DNA from: an uncultured Planctomycetaceae bacterium
GTDB lineage: Bacteria; Planctomycetota; Planctomycetia; Planctomycetales; Planctomycetaceae
Assembly: GCA_937916515.1 (NCBI GenBank)
Contig: CALFSX010000207.1
Coordinates: 1 to 47,128, forward strand
Length of the DNA: 47,128 nt
Direction: 5' to 3'
This document shows positions 11,484 to 47,128 of this stretch, in pieces. The notes under the pieces are model-generated. The model did not search any database. It saw only the letters and a list, made by a program, of their open reading frames with translations, and was not told the DNA's origin. Numbering within the stretch: the stretch's first letter is position 1; every line of letters begins with the position of its first letter. Made by a program: the position numbers and the translations under genes.

Positions 11484-12856
11484 GAAAAAAGTTCCAGCAC
11501 CGGTTTAGCTTCATCTGACACCAGTCGCACAGGCCGACCGCTGGACGTGGAAACGATAGTGGCCGGATCAATGCCCAACGCTGTATAGACGGTAGCCACC
11601 AGATCAGCTGGCGTCACCGGACGTTCCAGCGGCGATTCACCAACCGAATCGCTGGCACCGATCACCTGTCCGCCCAAAATTCCGCCGCCCGCTAAGACCA
11701 CGCTGAAAACTCGAGGCCAGTGGTCTCGCCCACCGCTGGTGTTGATTTTGGGAGTGCGTCCAAATTCGCCCATCACCACCACCAGCGTTTCATCCAGCAG
11801 GTTTCGATCTTTCAAATCATCCAGCAGCGCCGACACGGCCAGGTCCAGCGACGGAATCAGGCCCACCGGCGTTTTGGCTCCCGTATAGCCTTCCTTCAGT
11901 CGTGTGAACAGGTTTTCGTGAGTGTCCCAACCGCGTTGATTGACGGTCACAAAACGGACTCCCCGTTCAACCAACCGGCGAGCCAGCAGGCAGGACTGGC
12001 CGACGGTTTTCGCTCCATAACGTCGCCGCGTTTCGGGCGTTTCATCGTCCAGTTGAAACGCCTTAACCGCGTTGGGGGAAGTTACCATTTTTAGAGCTTG
12101 ATTCAGCGAACTGCTTTCCTGCAAAGTTGCGTCACCAGCAGAATTCCACTGGCTAAGCTGCTGTGCAAACTGGCGACGGCGTTCTATTCGATTCAGCGTC
12201 ATTCCGTTGGCCGGCTGCAAGTCTTTAACCGAAAAATCATCCGCTGCCGGATCAGCCTTCAACGAAAATGGAGCGTACTGTGAAGGCAAAAATCCAGCTC
12301 CATCAAAACGCCCACCGCCCACCGCATATTCCGGAACCGCAATATTGTTGGGGATGTCTGTCTGCAGCAAACCCAGTTGCTGACTGCCGACGGCGTGAAA
12401 CGAAGGATACGTCAACACGGGAGTCGGCCGGTAACCGGTCAGCATATAATGAGCTCCCAGGTTATGTTCGCCCAATGGCGAAGTCATTGAACGCACAATG
12501 GCGAAATCCTGCATGCGTTTGGCAAGTTGCGGCAGACACTCGCTGATGCTGATCCCTGCCACAGATGTGGAAATTGCCGACAAGGGGCCACGCACTTCGG
12601 ATGACGCGTCTGGCTTCAGGTCGAAGGTTTCCAAATGGCTGGGCCCACCATCCAGCCAAACCAGAATGCACGATTTCGCCTTAGAGCCCGCGACTTGACG
12701 CGTGTTTGTGTTTTCTGCAGGACATGGCGAACCGCTGAACGCAAGCATCTGCGGCAAGCCGATTCCCAGCCCCGCCAACTGCCCCAGTTGCAGGACGCCT
12801 CGGCGAGACACCCCGTCGCAGCGAATGGAAGAAGAAGGTCGAATTCTTTTTTGCAT
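11480..12856 (-). CDS. DUF1501 family protein with Tat signal
   Basis: A 458-residue protein of the DUF1501 family, related in fold to alkaline phosphatase/sulfatase enzymes. The ATG at 12856 places a twin-arginine signal near the N terminus (SRRGVLQLGQLAGLGIG, residues 17-33); the frame is open further upstream to 12985 but that stretch is not signal-like. Family features visible include ILVWLDGGPSHLETFDLKP, GEHNLGAHYMLTGY, GVRFVTVNQRGWDTHEN and VMGEFGRTPKIN. It follows the DUF1549/DUF1553 gene after 151 bases and overlaps the WD40 gene. The DUF1549 plus DUF1501 pair is abundant in Planctomycetes; the biochemical activity is not known. Confidence 0.88.
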   Translation of the reverse strand: MQKRIRPSSSIRCDGVSRRGVLQLGQLAGLGIGLPQMLAFSGSPCPAENTNTRQVAGSKAKSCILVWLDGGPSHLETFDLKPDASSEVRGPLSAISTSVAGISISECLPQLAKRMQDFAIVRSMTSPLGEHNLGAHYMLTGYRPTPVLTYPSFHAVGSQQLGLLQTDIPNNIAVPEYAVGGGRFDGAGFLPSQYAPFSLKADPAADDFSVKDLQPANGMTLNRIERRRQFAQQLSQWNSAGDATLQESSSLNQALKMVTSPNAVKAFQLDDETPETRRRYGAKTVGQSCLLARRLVERGVRFVTVNQRGWDTHENLFTRLKEGYTGAKTPVGLIPSLDLAVSALLDDLKDRNLLDETLVVVMGEFGRTPKINTSGGRDHWPRVFSVVLAGGGILGGQVIGASDSVGESPLERPVTPADLVATVYTALGIDPATIVSTSSGRPVRLVSDEAKPVLELFS

Positions 12857-42213: not shown

Positions 42214-42531
42214 ATGCTACGGCGAAAGCACGCGTTGCTCCGGCACCTCAACAAGTGGCTGCGTCGGCGAATCCGCGCGTGCTACTGGAAAAGTTGGTGA
42301 CTGGCGAAGACAAGAATTCGCAAGCTGCGTGAACTTGGCATCAGTCGAGACGAAGCGTTGAACCACAGCTACAGTCGCAAAGGCCCGTGGCGAATGTCGT
42401 CAAGCCGAGCGATTCAGATGGCACTGCCCTTCGAGTGGTTGACTGCCCGAGGACTGTTAAGTCTGAAAGATCTCTGGAACCAGTTGCCTCCGGTAAACCC
42501 GTGGGGCATCCACCCTGCCGTGGCGAATTGA
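42214..42531 (+). pseudogene. Remnant of a group II intron-encoded reverse transcriptase/maturase (C-terminal part)
   Basis: Translating from the ATG at 42214 gives HLNKWLRRRIRACYWKSW, then an in-frame TGA at 42298-42300. Past it the same frame continues RIRKLRELGISRDEALNH, SYSRKGPWRMSSSRAIQMAL, PFEWLTARGLLSLKDLW and stops at 42529. This order (WLRRRIRxCYWKxW, KLxxLG, SRKGPWRMS, ALxxxWLxxxGLxSLxDLW) is the maturase domain at the end of bacterial group II intron proteins. The reverse transcriptase part and the intron RNA domain V are not present, and the frame is interrupted, so it is a relic. It starts 80 bases after the sulfatase stop and lies just outside the cassette array. Confidence 0.75.
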
Positions 42532-43306: not shown

Positions 43307-44395
43307 TTATGCATGACTTGCGGCAAGACCGCGAACGCCCTTCGACAGTATATCAAGCCCTACGGCGATCACTTTCCGTCTCCAAACTTGATCTGCCGGA
43401 CAGAAGCACTCCAGTAATTCTTGCTTCGCATTCCGGAATGCCTGACTCGTTTTCGCACCAAAGTGGTGAGCCCTGTTCTCAGCTCGGATTGATGCCAAAA
43501 CGCGGACTGGACCGTAGGTGCCAAACTCCGCTGTGACGAAACGGTAATCACGGTCAGAGAATTGATCTTGGAGCCATTCTCCCATCGGTCCAGACGCTCT
43601 GTATGCTGTTCCACCACTTACGTCCGTGGCTTCGACAAGATCCTGACCAAAAACACGCTCGTACCATTGGCATTCGTCTGACCCGGTGAGCTCAGCCAAC
43701 AGCAACTTGTAAGAACCATAAGCTCCGAGGCCGCTGTGAAAGTCGACATGGAGCACTCGCTTTGCCGGACCAATCCAGTCCGCTGTGTTCTCCTTAATGA
43801 CCTGGAACGCTTGTGAGGGGCCGGACCCACCAAAAAAGATTCCGCGGGGATAATTGTATTGGCCCCGTGCGACACATTGTTTTAACGCGCTCATCCCGTA
43901 CCGAGCGATGTTCCATATCGCCTTAACACGGAACGGCTCGAATCTCGAGGGTGGCGTTGCGGGATTAAGGAACCCGTTCAGTCGATCGTAGCCCGCTGGG
44001 GCGCCGGTGTATTGGGAGTCATCGGAAAGGAAGTTCCGATTGAGATCAACGTTCTTCACGTTGAATCTTCTGATTCGGGAGAATCCAAATGGGTTGACTC
44101 CGTGGATAAAGACCCAGCGAACGTCACTCGCGATGTCGCCTCGGAGTTCATCGAGTTGGGCGAGTTGAATTGCTGAACCCAGGAAACCCTCAACTCCGTG
44201 AACCCCCGAGGAAGTCACCAGCGTTGGAGCGTCTTCAGGCCCTAAAACTGCAACGTCGATGGTAAAGTCTTCTCCTTCTGCGCCATCCTCGATGTGCAGA
44301 GGGTAACTGCTCATTCGAGCACCGACCGCCCTTGAGGCCTGAACGAATCGGCGTCTCGCATCTTCGTATGTGGATGAAAAAGGCGATTCAGTCAA
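43307..44395 (-). CDS. DUF2817 protein, M14-like zinc peptidase fold; integron-type cassette gene
   Basis: A 362-residue DUF2817 protein, a family related to M14 carboxypeptidases. Zinc-ligand motifs are in place: HGVE at 66-69 in SGVHGVEGF, and His in HVDFHSGLG (216-224); Glu290 in TAEFGTYG is the likely catalytic residue. VNPFGFSRIRR and VDLNRNF are also family-typical. The frame begins with TTG at 44395 (an internal ATG lies 27 codons in); conserved sequence before that ATG supports the TTG. No signal peptide, so cytoplasmic. It starts 14 bases after the attC-like site at 44409-44500, as the first gene position of a cassette. Substrate unknown. Confidence 0.85.
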   Translation of the reverse strand: MTESPFSSTYEDARRRFVQASRAVGARMSSYPLHIEDGAEGEDFTIDVAVLGPEDAPTLVTSSGVHGVEGFLGSAIQLAQLDELRGDIASDVRWVFIHGVNPFGFSRIRRFNVKNVDLNRNFLSDDSQYTGAPAGYDRLNGFLNPATPPSRFEPFRVKAIWNIARYGMSALKQCVARGQYNYPRGIFFGGSGPSQAFQVIKENTADWIGPAKRVLHVDFHSGLGAYGSYKLLLAELTGSDECQWYERVFGQDLVEATDVSGGTAYRASGPMGEWLQDQFSDRDYRFVTAEFGTYGPVRVLASIRAENRAHHFGAKTSQAFRNAKQELLECFCPADQVWRRKVIAVGLDILSKGVRGLAASHA

Positions 44396-44408
44396 CGATT
44401 TGCCTCAT

Positions 44409-44500
44409 GCCTAACGATTGCGGTAACGGGGCCGCGGCCAAGAACCTATGATTTCAAAACCCACGTCATCGGCGGCTCCCGTTCACCACATGGTTATCTG
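44409..44500 (-). other. attC-like recombination site A
   Basis: An imperfect palindrome lying exactly between two minus-strand genes. Read on the minus strand it ends with GTTAGGC, a full match to the integron core GTTRRRY, and begins with AGATAAC. Inner arms ggtaacggggccgc (44422-44435) and gcggctcccgttcacc (44472-44487) pair with unpaired extra bases, as in attC sites. The centre is variable. It starts one base beyond the stop of the 44502 gene and ends 14 bases before the DUF2817 start. Confidence 0.75.
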
Positions 44501-44501
44501 G

Positions 44502-45032
44502 CTAGTTCATCCACCACATCATGAAGTCAACCACGTTACCGTCGCGAACAATTGCAAATCCGTTTTCGCCTCCGAGTTGCTCCCAGTCCTTCTCTGGCGT
44601 GGTGTAAAACCAGAGCTGATCTGATTGGTTCGCATTGTCATTGTACCAAGTGTCAATCGCGGCAACCATGCTTAAGTCGTCCGGTGAGTCAGCATAAATA
44701 ATCTGATGAGCCTCTACGAGGGTCAGCGGGCGATCGAGCCATGACGCGATTTCGTTGAGGCGAGCAGCCGGAACGCTAGGTGCGTCGTCGGAATACCGAA
44801 CGACACGCTGACGCCAAGCGGCCACTGCAAGAATCGAAAACATTGCCGCCCCGAAAGAAAGCATGACGGTCGTCGACGGTTGAGATCTGTCGGGTGGAGC
44901 AACGAGATCAGGGAGCAGGGGCGAGATGTTAAAGACGAGAAGAATGATGTACAGGCAGGCCAGAACGGTAGCACCCCAGTGGGAGTACCTGAGAACAAGG
45001 TCAATGGTCGATAGGAGCAAACGAAACAGCAT
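44502..45032 (-). CDS. Small membrane protein of unknown function (cassette gene)
   Basis: A 176-residue protein with two predicted membrane helices (about 20-43 and 54-73) and a soluble C-terminal domain of about 100 residues that ends DGNVVDFMMWWMN. No family recognised. The C-terminal part, with WLDRPLTLVEAHQIIY and a Trp/Tyr-rich end, looks like a small globular domain. It fills the interval between attC-like sites B and A on the minus strand with almost no spare sequence, which is the organisation of an integron gene cassette. Confidence 0.75.
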   Translation of the reverse strand: MLFRLLLSTIDLVLRYSHWGATVLACLYIILLVFNISPLLPDLVAPPDRSQPSTTVMLSFGAAMFSILAVAAWRQRVVRYSDDAPSVPAARLNEIASWLDRPLTLVEAHQIIYADSPDDLSMVAAIDTWYNDNANQSDQLWFYTTPEKDWEQLGGENGFAIVRDGNVVDFMMWWMN

Positions 45033-45060
45033 GAGCGCGACTCATTGCATTGTCTTTGCC

Positions 45061-45147
45061 AAATAACGGGGTGTTAACGCGAATGTCGGTAGATGCAGTC
45101 CATTCTGTTCGAGTGGGCCGACAGTCGTGTTCAACACCTGGTTATGC
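45061..45147 (-). other. attC-like recombination site B
   Basis: Minus-strand reading begins GCATAAC and ends GTTATTT. Inner arms ggtgttaacgcgaatgtcgg (45070-45089) and ccgacagtcgtgttcaacacc (45118-45138) pair with one or two extra bases. The spacing and design match sites A and C, though the GTTATTT core departs from GTTRRRY. It lies 28 bases before the start of the 45032 gene. Confidence 0.65.
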
Positions 45148-45251
45148 GGCTTTTGATGGTTTGATGGAGTGCTGAGCTTGTGTTGATTAGCAGAGCGGAG
45201 CGAACTGGTCGACACAAGCTCAGCAGTCAAGTTAGACAGGGAAGTGGAAGA

Positions 45252-45527
45252 ATGAATGACGTAGGTGCAATTGGTGGTAAACGGAAGTTGTGGCGGTTGC
45301 AGGCAAGGCGGGAGTACGTCGAGCGGTTGACGGAACTGGCTACGACATATGGAATGGCGAGGTCTCAGTTGGTCGATGTGGTACTAAGGCAGTTCTTTAG
45401 TGACTGTGCGGCAGGGCGTGCGGTGGTTTTGTCGCCTGTTGGTCTTCCTGAGGCAGAGCTGCGTGAAACGGGTTCGAGTATTACAGGGGGTTCTGTTGGC
45501 AGTCAGTCATTTGGGTGGGTGGAATGA
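45252..45527 (+). CDS. Ribbon-helix-helix-like DNA-binding protein, reversed within a cassette
   Basis: A 91-residue protein. The ATG at 45252 follows gaagtggaag, a plausible ribosome binding site, and is preferred over the upstream open frame to 45180. Residues about 11-48 have the strand-helix-helix pattern of ribbon-helix-helix proteins: KLWRLQA, then RREYVERLTELATTYGM, then ARSQLVDVVLRQFFSD. The C-terminal third is Gly/Ser-rich. It lies between attC-like sites B and C but is on the plus strand, opposite to the other cassette genes. RHH proteins are often antitoxins or small regulators; no partner toxin frame of good quality is next to it. Confidence 0.65.
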   Translation: MNDVGAIGGKRKLWRLQARREYVERLTELATTYGMARSQLVDVVLRQFFSDCAAGRAVVLSPVGLPEAELRETGSSITGGSVGSQSFGWVE

Positions 45528-45784
45528 CGGGGAATTTACTGCAGTTTGGGGTGTGGTTCAAATCCCTGCCTCTCCGGTCGTGGGCTTCCGTCGCTGTCGT
45601 GTCGGTCGCTCGCCGATTGGCGACCGATCGCAGCTACGGATCCCCGCGTCCGGGGTCGTGGGCTTTTGTTGTGAGGAGAGGGAGTGGGCTTTAACCCCTG
45701 TGCGAGTATCACAGGGGTTTCTATTGGCAGTGAAGTGGAAGTGTTTGAGCGGGAGCGAGTATTACAGGGGGTTCTGTTGGCAGT
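45475..45784 (+). repeat. Three imperfect 29-bp direct repeats inside a cassette
   Basis: Copies at 45475-45503, 45703-45731 and 45756-45784 share cgagtattacaggggg-ttctgttggcagt with few changes; the first and third are identical. The first lies within the end of the ribbon-helix-helix gene. The middle copy has changed so that it forms a perfect 10-base stem with the upstream aacccctgtg (45692-45719). Between copies one and two is GC-rich, hairpin-rich sequence, including tcggtcgc/gcgaccga at 45602-45627. Irregular spacing rules out a CRISPR array. Confidence 0.75.
45555..45576 (+). other. Short tRNA-Ser-like 3' end
   Basis: The sequence reads ggttcaaatccctgc then ctctccg. GGTTCAAATCC is a standard T-loop, and an acceptor strand CCTCTCC with discriminator G is typical of bacterial tRNA-Ser. 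No matching 5' acceptor (GGAGAGG) or anticodon arm lies at the right distance upstream, so this is not a working tRNA. It may be a tRNA-derived remnant or coincidence. Confidence 0.3.
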
Positions 45785-45864
45785 GGAAGTGGTGGCGTTT
45801 CTTGACGTGGTGTCAGAAAGGGCTTGACCGTCCGCGATGAATAGACGATGTAGAGACTAGTGCC

Positions 45865-45956
45865 GGATAACGACCGTGATCACCGAGCCGGGACGAGCGA
45901 TCCTCCATTTCTAAACCACGCGCAAGACCGGCTTCGCGTGCATCACATTGTTATCC
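45865..45956 (-). other. attC-like recombination site C
   Basis: Minus-strand reading begins GGATAAC and ends GTTATCC, exact inverse copies. Inner arms gtgatcaccgagccgg (45876-45891) and ccggcttcgcgtgcatcac (45928-45946) pair with extra unpaired bases, and the centre is variable. The site begins one base after the TGA stop of the gene at 45958, the tight junction expected of a cassette. Confidence 0.75.
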
Positions 45957-45957
45957 A

Positions 45958-46524
45958 TCAATACCCTGGAATCGGTCGCTCAAGTGGCACTTGAAGTGTG
46001 TGCAATTTACCATCCCGGCTGGAAATATACTGCGCTGCTTTTAGTGGACCAGTTGTTGAGAAAGCTGGTATCCAGATCAGAAGGTCTCTTCCAGCGTGGT
46101 CGTCGACATCTTGCCAAGAAATATAAGCGGGTTTTACAAACGTCCAATTATCATCACTAAATTTCGACGCAATATTAGTGGAATCACCACCAGATGAGAC
46201 AATAATCTCTGCGTCGCCATCATCTCCATTGCCCAGAGAGATGGATCGCGTTTCGATCATGACGTGACGTTTCCCAATGTCAAATTCATGAGTGCCGTCA
46301 TATTGCAAGCCTGCTGGCACCCGTTGATATGCCATCAATAGCTGACGGGCTCCGGCAATTGCTACAATCGCAAGAGCGAAAAGCACAGTAAATAACATTA
46401 TCTGTTTTCGACTCAAGCTGCCGCCCAATACAAGAGTTCGCCGTTGATGGATAACGTTTTGCATCAGCCGGTTGCGACGATCCATGCTCAATGTAAAAAC
46501 GCGCCGTTCGCAACGCGGCTGCAT
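45958..46524 (-). CDS. Single-pass membrane protein of unknown function (cassette gene)
   Basis: A 188-residue protein when started at the ATG at 46524, which lies seven bases after the stop of the previous gene; later ATG codons at 46485 and 46464 are also possible, and an upstream frame to 46632 would overlap it. One membrane helix (about 43-65, MLFTVLFALAIVAIAGARQL) precedes a domain of about 120 residues with WQDVDDHAGRDLLIWIPAF, which resembles repeat-type beta domains but is not assigned. The soluble part should lie outside the cytoplasm. Its stop abuts attC-like site C. It shares a cassette with the EF-hand-like gene upstream. Confidence 0.65.
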   Translation of the reverse strand: MQPRCERRVFTLSMDRRNRLMQNVIHQRRTLVLGGSLSRKQIMLFTVLFALAIVAIAGARQLLMAYQRVPAGLQYDGTHEFDIGKRHVMIETRSISLGNGDDGDAEIIVSSGGDSTNIASKFSDDNWTFVKPAYISWQDVDDHAGRDLLIWIPAFSTTGPLKAAQYISSRDGKLHTLQVPLERPIPGY

Positions 46525-46531
46525 GCTGTTG

Positions 46532-46978
46532 TTACCCGCTTCTATGTTCAGGTTCCACCATCGGGGTAGGTTGAATATGTGTGCGAACGAACAGCTTCCT
46601 GAAAGTCCAATCGCCACCGAACAAGAGACCATAGAGCACTGTGTACCAAATTGCGGTCAATGGAATCCCAGTTATGGGGGCGAACGTGCGTCCCGTGTCG
46701 TTTCCTTGGTTTAGTATCGCGCGGTCGGCCGCGCTTGTGCGTTCGACTCCGTCGATTCTTCCGTTGCGATTCAGATCAAACGCCTTCATTGTCGATCGAT
46801 CAGTTGCGTCGGCCGCCACAACAAAAGCGATGACCAACACGTAGCCGCACACCATCGTCCATAAGATCGCGGGCATGCGAATTGCACGTTCGGTGCAGCA
46901 CCTCACGCCGACATACGCAAATATCGGCAAGGTGTACCAGACGAAAATTAACAGCATCGGTAACAGCATCGGTAACAT
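46532..46978 (-). CDS. Small membrane protein with one EF-hand-like loop (cassette gene)
   Basis: A 148-residue protein with three hydrophobic segments (about 3-25, 36-56 and 104-120). Between the second and third lies DLNRNGRIDGVE at residues 68-79, which has Asp, Asn, Asn, Gly, Ile, Asp and Glu at the positions of a canonical 12-residue calcium-binding loop. A single loop in a loop between membrane helices is unusual. The first codons contain a 12-base tandem duplication (46952-46975), giving MLPMLLPMLL. The start is 13 bases after the end of attC-like site D. No family recognised. Confidence 0.7.
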   Translation of the reverse strand: MLPMLLPMLLIFVWYTLPIFAYVGVRCCTERAIRMPAILWTMVCGYVLVIAFVVAADATDRSTMKAFDLNRNGRIDGVERTSAADRAILNQGNDTGRTFAPITGIPLTAIWYTVLYGLLFGGDWTFRKLFVRTHIQPTPMVEPEHRSG

Positions 46979-46990
46979 CTACACTCTCTC

Positions 46991-47076
46991 GGATAACGAA
47001 TGGCCATCACCGGGCACGAGCGGAAAGGCAACCATTGCCAAAACGCGCTTTCGAGTGCTCCGTGTGCATGGCATTG
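46991..47076 (-). other. attC-like recombination site D, interrupted
   Basis: Left core ggataac (46991-46997), so the minus-strand core is GTTATCC as at site C. Left arm aatggccatcaccgggcac (from 46999) pairs with gtgctccgtgtgcatggcatt (47055-47075). In site C the equivalent right arm is followed by gttatcc; here that core is absent and different sequence begins after gcattg at 47076. The site is therefore broken at its outer core. Confidence 0.65.
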
Positions 47077-47128
47077 GTACGCCAGTCATGGCGTATGACT
47101 TGTGGGGTGCAAGTCCCCTGTACGAGAA
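47077..47128 (+). mobile_element. Probable 5' end of a group II intron (class C, attC-targeting type), runs off the window
   Basis: Sequence after the broken attC-like site starts gtacgcc, near the group II 5' consensus GTGYG, and forms a hairpin tacgcca/tggcgta (47078-47095), then a second stem gggg/cccc around tgcaagt (47104-47118). This order resembles the start of domain I in class C introns. It lies on the plus strand, opposite to the cassettes, and at the TTG of the outer core, where IIC-attC introns insert. The intron protein and 3' end would be beyond the edge. It fits what is known of that class, but 52 bases are too few to be sure. Confidence 0.5.

Follow-up and report, generated by a model that had tools for sequence, protein, structure and literature searches.

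The window examined here, a 47,128-nt stretch of DNA from an uncultured Planctomycetaceae bacterium, carries near its end four cassette ORFs within positions 43307–46978 on the minus strand, together with uninterrupted attC sites and, at its very end, an attC site (site D) that is split by the start of a sequence running on the plus strand (Table 1). The listed frame of the 224-aa cassette ORF overlaps an attC, and its true start therefore probably lies further in. Within the same region, a weak match to the Rfam family anti-hemB is present at 45641–45725 on the plus strand (24.2 bits, below the gathering value of 49.5), and short similar stretches can be recognised by eye around it, at ~45460–45780.

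Table 1. Features at the end of the window, with position, strand and the basis on which each was assigned.
Feature	Position	Strand	Basis
Split attC site D	46991–47076	+ (bottom strand reads on +)	R1 covariance model match 46991–47082, 32.3 bits
First 52 nt of IIC-attC group II intron	47077–47128	+	HMM positions 1–52, E 1.3e-8; R2 51.9 bits, E 4.3e-15 (stretch belongs to the R2 training set)
Uninterrupted attC	46449–46537	+ (bottom strand)	Palindrome scan; R1 training site, 79.0 bits
Uninterrupted attC	45865–45956	+ (bottom strand)	Palindrome scan, score 11; R1 training site, 81.7 bits
Uninterrupted attC	45061–45147	+ (bottom strand)	Palindrome scan; R1 training site, 47.3 bits
Uninterrupted attC	44409–44499	+ (bottom strand)	Palindrome scan; R1 training site, 84.8 bits
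Cassette ORF, 148 aa, no Pfam match	46532–46978	-	Next cassette after split site D
Cassette ORF, 224 aa as listed, no Pfam match	45958–46632	-	ORF list
Cassette ORF, 176 aa, no Pfam match	44502–45032	-	ORF list
Cassette ORF, 362 aa, DUF2817 (PF10994, E 5.7e-81)	43307–44395	-	ORF list, Pfam
Further ORF, no Pfam match	45180–45527	+	ORF list, Pfam

The palindrome of site D opens with the R' core GGATAAC at 46991–46997 and can be followed to ...gcattg at 47076, where the R'' core is severed after its G. As the preliminary description had recognised, the expected TTATCC is missing, and GTACGCC... stands at the break instead. An ordinary gene start at 47077, the other outcome considered there, is unlikely, since no ORF of at least 80 aa begins at this position; two such ORFs read through it, from 46875 and 46882.

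The attC sites were located by searching the window and eight further loci of the same genome for palindromes of the form AAC...GTT. A regular expression with a strict palindrome score found no attC, and the criteria were then loosened, which yielded 10 rows at a score of at least 12 against a mean of 0.0 in five mononucleotide shuffles; these rows correspond to seven places, some being counted on both strands, and one of them, a palindrome at 12015–12087, was not taken as an attC. The covariance model R1 was built from seven uninterrupted sites, four in the window and three on contig C311, including the window site at 45865–45956, whose score of 11 is one at which the shuffles gave 1.2. Double changes occur in 14 of the 25 predicted pairs of the aligned sites, although the pairing itself is selected for, because the training sites were picked by palindrome score. 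Independent support for the attC assignment comes from the sites that R1 finds outside its training set. Site D is one of these, with E 2.5e-5 in 169 kb and 2.2e-8 in a 149-base stretch alone, and R1 also finds sites that lie between the annotated cassettes of integrons on plasmids (L125 and L126, with qacEdelta1-sul1, and L128, with an annotated intI1). The earlier reading of the window palindromes as attC is thus borne out by the recovery of split sites and of plasmid cassette sites. All 42 R1 matches at E ≤ 0.1 lie on the intron-sense strand (in 60 of the 87 loci, from named genomes and plasmids), and at E ≤ 0.01 there are at least 21 matches in G000, at least 22 in G004 and at least 21 in G056, with 150 candidates scored in each. 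Two intI genes of the window genome exceed the curated cut-off of 265 (335.7 bits on C142 and 295.2 bits on C43), both on contigs other than that of the window; on C142, intI is accompanied by an ORF of 346 aa in divergent orientation and, at the contig end, by an attC, an arrangement typical of an integron head. Sites of the attC type were already known from planctomycetes, and PMC8352920 has a model for them.

The sequence beyond the break had been proposed to be the start of a class C group II intron, and this is what an HMM built from the IIC-attC intron 5' ends of 16 non-planctomycete loci detects: its single match at E ≤ 10 in the 47,128 bases is the stretch following the break, starting at model position 1. 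The sequence from 47077 onward is common to intron ends of several phyla. Because matches at E ≤ 1e-4 are also obtained at 5 of the 25 loci of other introns that served as controls, the HMM alone shows class C; it is the attC context and the GTACGCC start that set the window intron apart from the terminator-type introns of related genomes. The Rfam group II covariance models, also suggested as a check, give no match within 46900–47128 of the window and do match the copies in G004, G056 and the plasmids. We conclude that site D almost certainly holds a group IIC-attC intron that entered the bottom strand of a cassette's attC hairpin by reverse splicing, between the G and the TT of R'' and opposite to the cassettes, in agreement with the central proposal of the preliminary description.

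The contig (C207) stops at 47128, and the intron at site D is known here from its first 52 nt only. A start of ~50 nt recurs at four other places in the genome (8.33 Mb in 343 contigs), with 100% identity at the ends of C334, C311 and C255 and 95% identity inside C137. The breaks of four contigs fall within two bases of a single position in the intron, as would be expected of a longer shared repeat, and the fifth copy, on C137, runs on; the window thus stops where it does because the intron is a multi-copy repeat that breaks the assembly. All five copies have an R1 attC match ending 5 nt past the first intron base. The single PF00078 match of the genome lies on C222, in a reverse transcriptase (RT) whose first part is lost at the contig end and which is not physically joined to the 5' end in the window; it is 63% identical to the RT of G004, a relative from the same genus whose genome is complete. 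Rfam gives no group II match at E ≤ 0.01 on the C222 locus (L006), where a domain-V-like hairpin was recognised by eye and by DNA comparison, and RF00029 gives none at E ≤ 0.001 across the whole genome (150 of 522 candidates scored). Near the opposite end of the cassette array, positions 42226–42495 of the window hold on the plus strand a remnant of the C-terminus of a class C intron RT, 44% identical to the C222 RT and interrupted by one stop. Two degraded IIC-attC intron 5' ends are also present in the genome, at 2334 down to 2281 of L245 (C116) and 987 down to 936 of L246 (C190); neither has an R1 attC match (the C116 locus was run directly, C190 in the whole-genome search only), and the C190 relic is attC-like by eye.

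The copy at site D might itself be a dead relic, that is, a 5' fragment whose R'' has been lost by deletion. Several copies among the relatives and in the genome itself are shortened or decayed (the G056 copies of 758 nt, C116, C190 and C255), yet the intron 5' end at site D is conserved to the base, and the common breakpoint of the four contigs is that of a longer repeat. We consider a relic possible but somewhat unlikely, and it would be the same element in a decayed state, compatible with the insertion of a IIC-attC intron as concluded above.

Full copies of the intron are found at attC-like sites in G004. Three of them are identical over 4037 bp, have differing flanks at both ends and start with GTACGCC after an attC (R1 E 3.8e-7, 5.6e-10 and 4.1e-4). 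The G004 intron encodes an RT of 475 aa (TIGR04416, 413.7 bits), whose best PDB relative is the GsI-IIC RT (E 1e-134), and terminates in CCCGAT, followed by TT. Copy L084 is matched by the Rfam families group-II-D1D4-3 and D1D4-1, which are common to other class C introns, RF00029 matches a G056 copy, and CCCGAT ends recur in relatives. The elements that had been predicted downstream of site D were located in relatives and at other places in the genome rather than at site D.

Further elements occur at several loci. A second group II intron (RT of 561 aa, Rfam D1D4-6) is inserted antisense in G004 at one fixed point of the apparent domain V of the outer intron; it is carried by L084 (3075–7111) and also by L085, L086, L089, L102 and L103, and the point is empty in L087 and L254. 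The identity in L103 is 99.8% for the inner part and 78–86% for the outer 5' pieces, which suggests that the inner intron homed independently. Another stretch, of 2135 bp and 99.95% identity (L084 7867–10001 and L085 205–2339), lies near two of the three G004 copies, out of register with them. In L204 (~130), which derives from a Verrucomicrobiaceae MAG, the apparent 3' end of one class C intron is immediately followed by the start of another.

With regard to the insertion point, the preliminary description placed the intron in the bottom strand, opposite to the cassettes and within two bases of TTGTT. The orientation stands, with the intron on the plus strand and the cassette ORFs on the minus strand, and so does the position, although it is one base off the published target TTGT^T. 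The 5' exon in the window ends ATTG, and the G^TT register is read by comparison with G004; all five 5' exons in the window genome end in G, and the two 3' ends available there (C222 and C255) precede TT. Across the 59 copies in which two patterns located both intron ends, the flanks rebuild a GTT core in 55, the remainder being L151 (5' flank off the contig), L157, L182 and L204. The cut is GT^T in 47 of these 55, corresponding to the target TTGT/T given in PMC7923331, and G^TT in the other 8, which include the G004 copies. As far as these alignments go, the window lineage thus appears to cut at G^TT, one base from the published position. No change in EBS1 that would fit this register is identifiable in the aligned domain I among the rows listed. 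A pattern search for the 5' end in the window genome and its relatives gave 24 rows, from which a chance match (L018, 3288) and an intron of GTTTGCC type (L099) were set aside, and 19 of the 22 remaining GTACG-type ends have an R1 match at E ≤ 0.01 ending 1–6 nt past the first intron base. The other three are L088 2279, at E 0.37, and L089 and L100, which have no R1 match.

The RT tree was intended to comprise 92 loci, 5 of which had no usable ORF and 6 of which were duplicates, and has 84 rows in its final form. The RTs of C222 and G004 fall within a clade of nine rows (100/100), all seven named members of which are planctomycetes, so that the window genome is very probably planctomycete; it is from this clade that we infer a planctomycete case of the intron/integron association, as previously proposed. 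Among the best 80 of at least 519 RT matches, the closest from named genomes are the planctomycetes Planctomycetales HKST-UBA38 and Rhodopirellula bin.212, followed by a mixture including desulfobacteria, cyanobacteria, Nitrospirae and gammaproteobacteria. Two RTs from the planctomycete phylum, L136 and L210, fall outside the clade, which indicates that the phylum has more than one lineage. A census of 392 genomes of the phylum with R2, a model that is not specific for attC introns, gave 37 genomes at E ≤ 1e-3, and 5 of the 30 loci fetched (L216, L218, L221, L222 and L224) have an R1 match at E ≤ 0.1 abutting the intron start.

According to PMC4424553, the usual insertion point of class C introns lies behind a terminator, which raises the alternative that a terminator-targeting intron landed after a hairpin that merely resembles an attC. 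Introns of the terminator type are carried by genomes of the same family and class (G047, G008 and G082), and in the free RT tree the neighbours of the planctomycete clade are lineages that, where examined, proved to be terminator-type (84/94). These introns, however, begin with TGTGCC or TTTGCC after GC-rich hairpins without an R1 match, and R1 finds nothing at E ≤ 1 in 90 kb from 19 loci of further RT relatives, including ten (L104–L113) whose class C 5' end is of the terminator type by eye, whereas the GTACGCC start of the window intron is that of the plasmid integron introns. In addition, a tree in which the 66 rows that belong neither to the terminator type nor to the outgroup form one clade is not rejected (p-AU 0.295, with some 5' ends unread), though the same test is strongly rejected when the Verrucomicrobiaceae row L204 is moved across the split. 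We therefore regard a chance landing of this kind as very unlikely. A misjoin of a repeat end to an attC during assembly, to which the coincidence of 47128 with the contig end might point, is still more improbable and can practically be dismissed, since five different attC-like 5' flanks are joined to this intron end at an identical base, the C137 junction is internal to its contig and the same attC/intron junction recurs in the complete genome G004.

How a IIC-attC intron would have entered site D can be outlined from the published family. Class C introns are described as lacking an endonuclease domain and targeting hairpin motifs, and IIC-attC introns as targeting the bottom-strand attC hairpin (PMC7923331, PMC4424553, PMC8876359). 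The attC hairpin may thus stand in for the terminator hairpin used by other class C introns, with the intron RNA and the RT recognising the single strand in its folded form together with a short TTG / TT match; the intron would insert and then be copied into DNA. By analogy with the family, RT-driven insertion chemistry is likely to have operated at site D, and the intron copy there is presumably complete beyond the contig end. As insertion cuts R'', the integrase is probably unable to use attC D, which would entail a loss of cassette mobility at this site. S.ma.I2 is reported in the same sources to separate a gene from its attC and to carry an outward promoter; the published features of splicing, mobility and promoter activity may likewise carry over to the intron at site D.

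The finding in the window is thus a known kind of element in a new host lineage, and an association already on record now includes a bacterial group that has received less study. The intron/integron partnership, which the literature consulted describes chiefly for proteobacteria and for resistance integrons, is also established, in multiple copies, in a planctomycete lineage whose integrons are chromosomal. This opens to testing the origin of attC targeting among class C introns, as well as the question of whether their disruption of R'' immobilises cassettes. Among the papers listed by full-text literature searches, none is an earlier report of planctomycete IIC-attC introns, as judged by title or abstract opening, and we do not claim priority. 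A more far-reaching scheme, which we put forward as speculative and rather improbable, is that planctomycetes hold a deep attC-targeting intron lineage of their own, perhaps of independent origin from terminator-type class C introns and with its own G^TT register, and that in the relative of the same genus these introns serve in turn as the homing site for a second, antisense group II intron at a fixed point of their domain V.

Three known systems invite comparison. The group IIB introns that PMC7923331 describes from integrons in hypersaline habitats are likewise group II introns in cassette arrays, but they belong to another ribozyme class, and UHB.I2 is reported there in cassette orientation just downstream of an attC. 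The terminator-targeting class C introns (G047, G008 and G082, with GsI-IIC as an RT relative) share with the planctomycete introns the Rfam class C ribozyme families (L104), a related RT and a hairpin preceding the insertion point, and differ in their 5' end, in the hairpin itself and in having no R1 attC match. The closest counterparts are the IIC-attC introns of mobile integrons. PMC8876359 presents S.ma.I2 as a published group IIC-attC intron of this kind. Three plasmid copies were compared here (L125, pIMP4_000369; L126; L128), with the same 5' end (GTACGCC..CATG), the same 3' end (CCCGAT), a class C RNA with an RT 49–52% identical to that of G004, and the same insertion into the attC bottom strand, opposite to the cassettes. 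We take these copies to be of the S.ma.I2 kind. In contrast to them, the planctomycete RTs form a separate clade (100/100), the 5' exons in the window genome end in G, and G004 shows the G^TT register rather than TTGT^T. Moreover, an extra segment of domain I following the conserved AGCC is present in 6 of 8 planctomycete rows (G004, C137, L131, L142, L152 and L092, but not L133 or L210) and in 0 of 15 others.
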